From Candidatus Peregrinibacteria bacterium GW2011_GWF2_39_17 (GTDB lineage Bacteria; Patescibacteriota; Gracilibacteria; UBA1369; UBA12473), in the NCBI GenBank assembly GCA_000993615.1, contig LBWM01000007.1, positions 1-64,000 of the forward strand: DNA of 64,000 nucleotides, read 5' to 3'. The translations under genes were made by a program, and so were the position numbers. Every line of letters begins with the position of its first letter. Position 1 is the stretch's first letter. The notes beneath the pieces were generated by a model that had not been told where the DNA came from, ran no database searches, and worked only from the letters and a program-made list of their open reading frames with translations. This document shows positions 42,682-45,600 of this stretch, piece after piece.

Positions 42682-42694
42682 TATAATTAACTCA
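42682..42694 (+). promoter_or_regulatory. -10 box of a leaderless uvrC mRNA
   Basis: TATAAT (42682-42687) is 6 nt before the ATG at 42694, which places the expected transcription start on the ATG. An AAAGGAGG at 42665-42672 is 21 nt from the ATG, too far to serve as a ribosome binding site. Confidence 0.5.
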
Positions 42695-44880
42695 TGTCCT
42701 CTTTTAAATCCATTATTATTAATCTTCCACACTCTCCAGGAGTTTACCGATTTTTGGACGATAAGGGTGGAGTTCTCTATGTGGGCAAAGCTATTGACCT
42801 CAAAAAACGCGTCAGTTCCTATTTTCGCAAGCAAAAAAATCAGCCCATGCGTTTGCAAAAACTGATCGAGAAAACCGTGAACATCGAGTATACGGTGGTC
42901 GATTCCGAACTCGAAGCCCTCATTTTGGAAACCAATCTCATCAAATCCTACCGGCCGCGTTACAACATTTTGATGAAAGACGATAAAAATTATGTGTATC
43001 TTAAAATCACAACGAATGAAGATTACCCACGCATTACAGTTACTCGCCAAGTCGAACGAGACGGTGCGCGCTATTTCGGGCCAAAAGCCTCAGCCGGGGA
43101 GCTTTACCGCACCCTCAAATGGCTCAAAAAGGTTTTTCCCTATCGCCATTGTGGCCTCGACATCCGATTTAAGGGAGATTCGACTGAACCGCTGCGAACC
43201 GGACAACCGGGTGAAGGAGGAGGCCCATTCAAGGTTTTGGTCACGCATAAGGTCCTCAAATACCCCTGCATCGATTACCACATCAAACGGTGTGTGGGGC
43301 CTTGCATTGGCACAGTTACTCCTGAGCAGTACAAAAAATTCATTCTTCCCATTGTGCATTTTTTTGAAGGCAAAACCGACGAAATCGTGAAGGATTTAAA
43401 AGAAAAAATGCAGCAGGCCGCTTTCGGAAAACAGTTCGAAAAAGCCGCGCGCATTCGTGATCAACTGTTGGAAATGGAGCATTTGATGGCGCCGCAGCGG
43501 GTGAGTAGCCCGGATGGCATCGATAAAGACGTCATCGGCCTTGTGACCGAGGGCGGGATGGGATATGTGAGTCATTTCATGTTTCGTGCGGGAAAATTGA
43601 AAAGTCAGGAAAATTTCATCCTCAATGCCGTGCATTTGGAGTCCGGTGCTGAACTTGAAGACGCGGAAATCCTGTACGCATTTGTGCAGCAATACTATGA
43701 AAAAGCCACAGACATCCCACGCGAAGTGTTGCTTCCAGAACCTTTTCCACAAGCCAAAACAATCGAGGAATGGCTCACGACGTTAGCCAATCATCCAGTG
43801 AAATTTTTTCATCCCAAGCAAGGAAAAAGTAAAGCTCTCATTCAACTGGCCAATGACAACGCGCACAGTTTCGCCAAAAAAACGCAGGTGAGTTGGCAAA
43901 ATAAGGAAGGTAAGGGGGTGGAAGACGCCCTAAAGGGGCTTCAAAAAATACTCAAACTACCCAAGTTGCCGCAGCGCATCGAGGGGTATGACATTTCCCA
44001 TTTGGGCGGGCAGGATACCGTGGGCAGCATGGTGGTGGTTGAAAAAGGCCTGCCCAAAAAAGCGGACTACCGTCATTTTAAGCTCAGAACCGTGCAAGAG
44101 CGCATCGATGATTATGCGGCCATGAATGAAGTGCTGCAGCGGCGATTGAGGTATTTGGAGCCCATTTTAAGCGGGATGAGGAAAGCAAAAAAGAAAGAAA
44201 TTCCTCAAATTGAAAAAATCCTCACTCGAGAAAAATTGGACACCGACGATTTGATTCCGCACAAAATATTGATCATTGAAAAACGCAAAAAAATCGTGGG
44301 CATCGTGCGCACCAAACCCATCGAAAAAGACGCCAACGAATTGGCGTCGTTGTGGGTGGACCCGAGCTGTCGAGGCGAAGGATTGGCTCGTGAGTTGGTT
44401 TATGCAGTCATGGCGAAACAAAGAAAAGGGAAACTTTATGTGCTGCCGTGCCAAACCTTGATCGATTGGTATGGATCACTGGGTTTTCACGACGTGAAGG
44501 AAATACCCAAATTTTTTGAGGATAAGGCCACGCGATGCGTAAATGCCTGCTTGATTGAAAAACCAGTGGTCATGGTTTATAGGTTTCCAAAAGGGGAAGG
44601 GGACACCTCATTGACGCGAAAGCCGCATTTGATCATGGTGGATGGGGGGAAAGGGCAGGTGAGCGTGGCCGCGGCCACGCTGAAAAAAGCAAAACTCAGC
44701 ATTCCTTTGATTGGATTAGCCAAAAAAGAAGAGGCCATTTTTATGCCCGGGCAATCCAAGCCACTCATCCTTCCCAAAGAATCCGCAGAACTTCAACTCC
44801 TCCAGCGTCTTCGCGACGAAGCCCATCGCTTCGCCCTCAAATATCAACAAGGGTTAAGAGGGGAGCGATTAAAAAGTTAG
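42694..44880 (+). CDS. uvrC: UvrC excinuclease subunit with inserted GNAT acetyltransferase domain
   Basis: 728 residues against about 600 for typical UvrC. In order: GIY-YIG nuclease (SPGVYRFLDD...LYVGKAIDLKKRV, residues 12-90), Cys cluster with an unusual insert before YPCIDYHIKRCVGPC (near 190), UVR helix (FEKAARIRDQLLEMEHL), and an RNase H-like nuclease with GYDISHLGGQD near 431, VDGGKGQ near 648 and HRFA near 711. Residues about 490-640 are inserted between the first two nuclease motifs. They carry a GNAT signature, ELASLWVDPSCRGEGLARE near 549, and WYGSLGF. The C-terminal helix-hairpin-helix pair is missing. All nuclease residues are intact, so the enzyme could still make both incisions in UV repair. 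G+C is higher than in flanking genes, suggesting transfer. Confidence 0.9.
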   Translation: MSSFKSIIINLPHSPGVYRFLDDKGGVLYVGKAIDLKKRVSSYFRKQKNQPMRLQKLIEKTVNIEYTVVDSELEALILETNLIKSYRPRYNILMKDDKNYVYLKITTNEDYPRITVTRQVERDGARYFGPKASAGELYRTLKWLKKVFPYRHCGLDIRFKGDSTEPLRTGQPGEGGGPFKVLVTHKVLKYPCIDYHIKRCVGPCIGTVTPEQYKKFILPIVHFFEGKTDEIVKDLKEKMQQAAFGKQFEKAARIRDQLLEMEHLMAPQRVSSPDGIDKDVIGLVTEGGMGYVSHFMFRAGKLKSQENFILNAVHLESGAELEDAEILYAFVQQYYEKATDIPREVLLPEPFPQAKTIEEWLTTLANHPVKFFHPKQGKSKALIQLANDNAHSFAKKTQVSWQNKEGKGVEDALKGLQKILKLPKLPQRIEGYDISHLGGQDTVGSMVVVEKGLPKKADYRHFKLRTVQERIDDYAAMNEVLQRRLRYLEPILSGMRKAKKKEIPQIEKILTREKLDTDDLIPHKILIIEKRKKIVGIVRTKPIEKDANELASLWVDPSCRGEGLARELVYAVMAKQRKGKLYVLPCQTLIDWYGSLGFHDVKEIPKFFEDKATRCVNACLIEKPVVMVYRFPKGEGDTSLTRKPHLIMVDGGKGQVSVAAATLKKAKLSIPLIGLAKKEEAIFMPGQSKPLILPKESAELQLLQRLRDEAHRFALKYQQGLRGERLKS

Positions 44881-45498
44881 AAACTTTTTAAGCATTTTTT
44901 GTTGCTCCTTTCTAGTGGCTGTTACTTCGTCTCCCCCATGGAAAACAATATTTCTTAATTTTCTTAATTGATCACAGCTACCAGAATTTTGGCTAGGGGA
45001 TAGGTGAAATTCTCTATCGAGAATGCTTTGAAATGCATCTAGGGTAGCAAGTACTGTTCTCTCGAAATCTCTTCGCCTGGCTTCTTCATCGACAGCTACT
45101 GGCGGAGTGGTAGCCAATTGATCTGATTCTATTTTTTTCCCGCTATAAGTGAAAATTCTCTCCCTTTTATTGGGATCAATTTTAACAGAAGGTAAAAATA
45201 TAGAACATGAATCGCCGGGAAATGAGTCGGGATCAGTTAATTCAGATTCTCTTAAGGAAGAAATATATTCCATATCCCTTGTCAAGGGTCCTTCGAGAAG
45301 TTGATAGATTAGCTTTCCATTTTTAGTTTTCTTTACAAGCAGTGCAGTAGTGCTGCCATTAGGTGTACAGCCGTTTTGTAAGCGCGGCTTTAATGTGGCT
45401 AAATTTGTTGTTGGCTCATCAATTAGCCTAAATCCTGGTAAAAGCTTAGGGAATAAATACATTGCGGGTACCTCCGTATCAGTAGGATACTCAGACAT
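44869..45498 (-). CDS. Hypothetical protein
   Basis: About 209 residues from the ATG at 45498, preceded by a TTGACA/TAAAAT promoter. No signal peptide or membrane helix. The C-terminal half has a predicted helical segment (EEARRRDFERTVLATLDAFQSIL) and a region with KLRNIVFHGGDE. I recognise no domain. Its 3' end overlaps the 3' end of uvrC by 12 nt. Codon use is closer to the AT-rich majority than to uvrC. Confidence 0.6.
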   Translation of the reverse strand: MSEYPTDTEVPAMYLFPKLLPGFRLIDEPTTNLATLKPRLQNGCTPNGSTTALLVKKTKNGKLIYQLLEGPLTRDMEYISSLRESELTDPDSFPGDSCSIFLPSVKIDPNKRERIFTYSGKKIESDQLATTPPVAVDEEARRRDFERTVLATLDAFQSILDREFHLSPSQNSGSCDQLRKLRNIVFHGGDEVTATRKEQQKMLKKFLTF

Positions 45499-45523
45499 TT
45501 TAAAATTGTTAATTGTTGTTATA

Positions 45524-45551
45524 ATTTTAACAAAAATATCAATTTTGTCAA
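45524..45551 (-). promoter_or_regulatory. Promoter of the hypothetical gene at 44869-45498
   Basis: Minus strand: TTGACA (45546-45551), 16-nt spacer, TAAAAT (45524-45529). Confidence 0.6.
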
Positions 45552-45600
45552 CCACAAGTCCATGTTATTTTAAACCCAACGGTCGTAAACTAATCATGTT

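Follow-up and report, generated by a model that had tools for sequence, protein, structure and literature searches.

A GNAT-family domain carried within the RNase H-like nuclease of UvrC in Candidatus Peregrinibacteria and their relatives

INTRODUCTION

UvrC is among the most conserved repair nucleases, and in the DNA studied here its catalytic fold is interrupted by what looks like a second enzyme domain. What is this domain, how old is its place in the nuclease, and what might it do there? We addressed these questions at the uvrC gene of Candidatus Peregrinibacteria bacterium GW2011_GWF2_39_17, in a window of 64,000 nucleotides (contig LBWM01000007.1, positions 1 to 64,000) from a genome of 1.31 Mb that is 97.9% complete. 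A first-pass annotation had placed a GNAT-like domain at 44164-44620 and regarded it as a folded, tolerated insertion.

RESULTS

The uvrC gene and its nuclease residues

The uvrC reading frame is intact and its product passes the UvrC equivalog model TIGR00194 (Table 1). Its UvrC matches in Pfam comprise GIY-YIG, UVR and two RNase H entries. The RNase H-like domain (PF08459, 2.3e-49) carries the Asp-Asp-His triad as D433, D650 and H711, and D433 is kept in 126 of 126 aligned UvrCs. Missing data aside, this triad and the GIY-YIG residues Y29, R39, E79 and N91 are invariant across the aligned UvrCs with and without an insert, in agreement with the earlier remark that the catalytic motifs flanking the insert are kept. 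UvrA and UvrB are each encoded by one intact copy in the genome (TIGR00631 1005 bits, TIGR00630 1407 bits).

Table 1. Features of the uvrC locus, in window coordinates
Feature	Position	Strand	Evidence or detail
uvrC gene, internal GNAT, no C-terminal HhH	42694..44880	+	728 aa; TIGR00194 E=1.1e-147
GIY-YIG nuclease domain, residues 15-91	42736..42966	+	PF01541 1.9e-10; Y18, Y29, R39, E79, N91 present, and conserved wherever the aligned UvrCs have data
Stretch of about 34 residues, residues 154-188	43155-43257		GLDIRFKG..RTGQPGEGGG.., upstream of conserved YPCIDYHIKRC
UVR motif (UvrB-contact motif of the family), residues 230-262	43381..43479	+	PF02151 1e-6
RNase H-like domain, piece 1, residues 417-488	43942..44157	+	PF08459; catalytic D433
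GNAT domain insert, residues 489-643	44158..44622	+	PF13508 3.9e-10; model pLDDT 77.8, pTM 0.75
Acetyl-CoA P-loop R-x-x-G-x-A = RGEGLA, residues 560-565	44371..44388	+	sequence
Y593 in WYGSLGF, usual GNAT general-acid position (role inferred)	44470..44472	+	sequence
RNase H-like domain, piece 2, residues 644-728	44623..44877	+	D650 and H711; chain end, no (HhH)2
3' end of uvrC without (HhH)2	44836-44880		
Convergent gene, no assigned function	44869-45555	-	overlaps uvrC 3' end by 12 bases

The insert matches GNAT profiles

The insert sits between the catalytic Asp433 and Asp650. In a Pfam search with the whole UvrC, the PF08459 match is split and the intervening stretch matches PF13508 (4.1e-9), PF00583 (6.2e-8) and PF13673 (1.5e-6), all above the gathering scores. 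These profiles bear out the GNAT-like domain that had been proposed, and PF13508 is recovered again with the insert on its own. The borders, set by alignment with relatives, fall within 6 bases of those first given. By sequence alignment, the insert takes the place of a 4-residue turn in Thermotoga maritima UvrC and a 9-residue turn in Deinococcus radiodurans UvrC. The spacing from YDISH to DGGKGQ is 213 residues here versus 65-92 in uninserted relatives, so the gap of 20-30 residues that the first-pass annotation gave for other UvrCs was too short.

Through RGEGLA the insert conforms to GNAT motif A, R/Q-x-x-G-x-G/A. The N-acetylglutamate synthase/ArgA models stay below their cut-offs, at 27 versus 154 bits for PRK07757 and 21 versus 344 bits for PRK05279. 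A typical amino-acid acetyltransferase identity is ruled out by the NCBIfam cut-offs.

A GNAT fold is predicted inside the nuclease fold

AlphaFold models were built from four sequences. UvrC residues 271-728 gave pLDDT 76.6 and pTM 0.49, and the insert alone is the model m5c26bb33d1ef of Table 1. The C-terminal-half model matches the UvrC structure 2nrz (Z 22.3, rmsd 1.9 over 156 residues, 45% identity) and the N-acetylglutamate synthase 2r8v (Z 17.1, rmsd 2.1 over 138 residues), the latter match covering model positions 219-363, or UvrC residues 489-633. The GNAT structure matches of the models reach Z 13-17 over about 130-139 residues, and a Foldseek search with the insert on its own puts the same GNATs on top.

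Thus, the predicted structure, a check that had been proposed with the original claim, has a GNAT fold inside the RNase H fold, with the mutual placement of the two domains unreliable in the model. The turn comes ahead of the beta strand with Asp650 at its end and, as judged from the fold, would lie at the strand end away from the active site, which may be why a domain of about 150 residues is tolerated there.

The insert is widespread in the order and class

Within Patescibacteria, to which the comparison was confined, UvrC matches were found in 56 of the 59 genomes searched of the order (Peregrinibacteria). In all 51 of its UvrCs with a measurable turn, the turn holds 103-313 residues, and most families of the wider class have inserts of comparable length. 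In the rest of the phylum the turn is mostly short. One UvrC from another class (L120, genome G176) nevertheless carries a clear relative of the insert, with a Pfam GNAT match of 5.1e-11 and 115 bits with the order's insert model. A narrow scan of named genomes with the insert alignment returned three loci, all from Candidatus Peregrinibacteria. The same insertion is therefore found in other UvrCs, as the first reading of the locus had suggested looking for.

The same junctions recur across dozens of independent genomes, so the insert is no assembly error and misassembly is ruled out. One insert of 313 residues (L035, genome G007) apparently holds two GNAT-like units in tandem, with a clear Pfam GNAT match for the first unit only.

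The same turn receives unrelated domains

At least 40 extra residues occur at this turn in 104 of the 126 UvrCs of the phylum sample. Elsewhere in UvrC, additions of at least 40 residues were seen at only three sites, in 1-3 sequences each and with a maximum of 61 residues, which leaves this turn as the sole site of large insertions. The stretch at residues 154-188 is a separate observation; three relatives have 46-61 extra residues at its site.

In the class family f21 (14 UvrCs, SH-aLRT 100), the turn of some members is about 9-33 residues long, while that of others is occupied by a domain: a DUF559 domain in L102 (PF04480, 7.7e-35), a nucleotidyltransferase-like domain in L105 (genome G063; PF10706, 1.6e-6), one GNAT type in L108-L111 and another in L115 (PF00583, 2.3e-16). 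With the insert model of the order, these GNATs reach only about 0-45 bits, against 66-188 bits for the majority of the order's own P-loop-bearing inserts and 115 for L120, and so are probably separate arrivals. No free copy of the f21 GNAT was found in its own genomes. In another family, L117 (f23, genome G065) has a serine hydrolase in the turn (PF06821, 7.2e-12). The turns of L126 and L127 contain palindromic repeat peptides.

The DUF559 insert of L102 (genome G112, minus strand) is bounded by a 15-base terminal inverted repeat, GATTTCGCGGGATTT, and has inner palindromes. In the same bacterial family, f21, DUF559 domains also lie in frame, flanked by repeat-like peptides, inside an Elp3-like radical SAM protein (L170:766-2991, genome G063) and a valyl-tRNA synthetase (L174:700-3345, genome G112). 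Together the three cases suggest a mobile DUF559 element capable of in-frame fusion to housekeeping genes.

Probable inheritance of the insert with UvrC

Among the 58 P-loop-bearing inserts, distances of the insert and of the UvrC core are correlated (Mantel r 0.77, permutation maximum 0.16). The GNAT carriers appear in more than one place of the free UvrC tree, in which the class backbone and the deep branches are weakly supported, so more than one insertion of the same GNAT type is possible. The AU test (p 0.15) does not reject a single clade of GNAT-bearing UvrCs. These data support the arrival of the GNAT in this turn of UvrC before the class radiated, or early in that radiation, with inheritance alongside UvrC since. 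They are most simply, though not conclusively, read as a single early insertion with later losses.

A search of six genomes of the order for a free-standing GNAT that could have donated the window insert gave only weak GNATs of 22-32 bits. No terminal inverted repeats of at least 9 bases were found flanking the window insert, as expected for an old insertion.

The acetyl-CoA site is lost repeatedly and its parts are lost together

We counted 93 inserts as the window GNAT type, some very degenerate ones being placed by position only, and scored the P-loop as intact when it fits a motif A of R/Q/K-x-x-x-hydrophobic-G/A/S. By this definition the acetyl-CoA loop is intact in 58 and lost in 35, with 18 minimum changes on the tree. 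Tyr593 is present in 54 of the 58 P-loop-intact inserts versus 10 of the 35 P-loop-lost ones (Fisher 8e-11). In about 10 independent tree pairs, P-loop and Tyr593 change concordantly in 6.2 and oppositely in 0 (median p 0.03), whereas the structural control positions GF597-598, Y582, P605 and D637 fall short of such coupling with the P-loop. Loss of the tyrosine along with the loop is as expected of a working site. Family f24 retains loop and tyrosine in nearly all of its 12 members.

In close pairs the measurable dN/dS is 0.03-0.30 for the insert and 0.02-0.17 for the core, and even the P-loop-less inserts fall at 0.14-0.30. Such low values indicate purifying selection on the insert at the protein level. 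Its dN is about two to five times that of the nuclease in most pairs. Some P-loop-less inserts have shrunk to 103-125 residues, and Y582 and GF597-598, in the fold-bearing C-terminal half, are mostly retained even without P-loop and tyrosine. As the acetyl-CoA site has been lost repeatedly without loss of UvrC, it is not essential to repair. Where present, to judge by these substitution patterns, the site behaves like a used one, and acetyltransferase activity of the insert is likely.

The (HhH)2 domain is missing

The UvrC chain stops 14 residues past HRFA, without an (HhH)2 domain. In studied UvrCs this domain normally ends the chain and is required for single-stranded DNA binding and 5' incision (PMC7835731). 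In L002, its nearest relative, the chain stops at the same position, so the absence is no local truncation, and since TIGR00194 is still passed the protein is a UvrC without HhH.

Such loss is common among the inserted UvrCs: HhH is absent from 44 of 103 inserted versus 3 of 21 uninserted relatives. Compensation for the insert was considered as the reason and set aside: the loss is commoner with inserts, but the presence of HhH changes 17 times on the tree.

DISCUSSION

We consider it probable that this is a working UvrC with an inherited GNAT in a surface turn, the GNAT being a predicted acetyltransferase accessory to repair. With intact genes for UvrA and UvrB and every catalytic residue in place, UvrC would perform both incisions together with these partners. 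By sequence and predicted structure it carries, in a turn of the RNase H-like domain for the 5' incision, a whole GNAT domain whose nearest likenesses are the N-acetylglutamate synthase/ArgA GNATs. With the acetyl-CoA loop and the tyrosine kept together under selection in most lineages, the GNAT most likely binds acetyl-CoA and acetylates an amine, either of a small molecule or of something held close to the UvrABC complex. In several lineages the activity appears to be lost and a shortened scaffold to remain, so that the catalytic role would be accessory.

Its main competitor is that the insert is a tolerated passenger, arriving by chance in a permissive turn and kept foldable by selection without having a function. 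The unrelated domains in the same turn of relatives (DUF559, nucleotidyltransferase, serine hydrolase and other GNATs), the repeat-derived peptides of L126 and L127, the many P-loop losses and the faster evolution of the insert than the core are all as this explanation would have it. A passenger, however, is not expected, across order-level divergence, to keep both the loop and Tyr593 in 58 of 93 inserts, to lose them in a coupled manner or to hold them as constantly as f24 does, and we regard it as possible though rather unlikely. From these sequence comparisons an accessory acetyltransferase is most likely and is ranked first, with the passive insert second. Less probable still is a non-catalytic sensor or docking module that binds acetyl-CoA, CoA or a partner and positions or gates UvrC without need of catalysis. 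The retention of Y582 and GF597-598 where P-loop and tyrosine are gone, and the purifying selection on degenerate inserts, speak for such a module, but it leaves unexplained why the tyrosine tracks the P-loop.

A bolder proposal, which we hold to be doubtful, extends the accessory role to a bifunctional UvrC, in which the acetyltransferase would tie excision repair to acetyl-CoA or to protein acetylation, a link that the first-pass annotation had also suggested, and in which the turn would be a socket for swapped enzymes. If the socket part were true, GNATs of several origins, a DUF559 nuclease, a nucleotidyltransferase and a hydrolase would have been plugged in or swapped there. At the other extreme, an artefact of assembly or of gene calling, or decay of the UvrC, has a negligible chance, given the recurrence of the junctions, the in-frame joins at both borders and the retention of all nuclease residues. 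Profiles, predicted structure, conservation across order and class, and purifying selection instead agree with a folded and tolerated insertion, as the first-pass annotation had it.

An accessory acetyltransferase in UvrC would place an enzyme domain, inherited across a class, within the catalytic fold of a highly conserved nuclease that is itself intact. Its carriers, the Peregrinibacteria and their relatives, are very small bacteria that have not been cultured and that form a large group. Because the insert is inherited and its cofactor site is under selection, whether acetyl-CoA is linked to excision repair can be tested by point mutation. The turn also offers a natural series of domain-insertion experiments, filled with a GNAT, a nuclease, a nucleotidyltransferase, a hydrolase, repeat peptides or nothing, which is useful for learning how a folded protein takes up domains and which of them stay.

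Among known proteins, Elp3 and TmcA also combine a GNAT domain with a nucleic-acid enzyme in one chain. They modify RNA rather than act in DNA repair, and their GNAT domain is not known to interrupt a nuclease fold. The UvrCs of T. maritima (2nrt, 2nrz) and D. radiodurans (8b0q) share the RNase H-like fold (Z 22, 40-45% identity), the same Asp/Asp/His triad and the N-terminal GIY-YIG, but have a turn of 4 to 9 residues in place of the GNAT domain. The N-acetylglutamate synthase/ArgA GNATs (2r8v, 5yo2, 5yge) are the nearest solved folds, are among the nearest by sequence and share the acetyl-CoA loop. The insert has 15-23% identity to them, scores far under the curated cut-offs of the NCBIfam amino-acid acetyltransferases and gives no indication of glutamate as its substrate.

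Rickettsia palindromic elements insert in frame into protein-coding genes (reviewed in PMC10969869). The repeat peptides of L126 and L127 and the DUF559 insert of L102 resemble them. The window insert differs in being a conserved protein domain that is not flanked by terminal inverted repeats. In the literature searched, with subscription papers and preprints outside its coverage, we found no description of a UvrC with GNAT or other domain insertions. The component families are known, and the combination of UvrC with an inserted GNAT is new relative to that literature. The nearest published case is the conserved signature insert of Deinococcus UvrC (PMC5867870), which is alike in kind, being lineage-specific and in a surface loop, but consists of 16 residues as opposed to the whole domain carried here.
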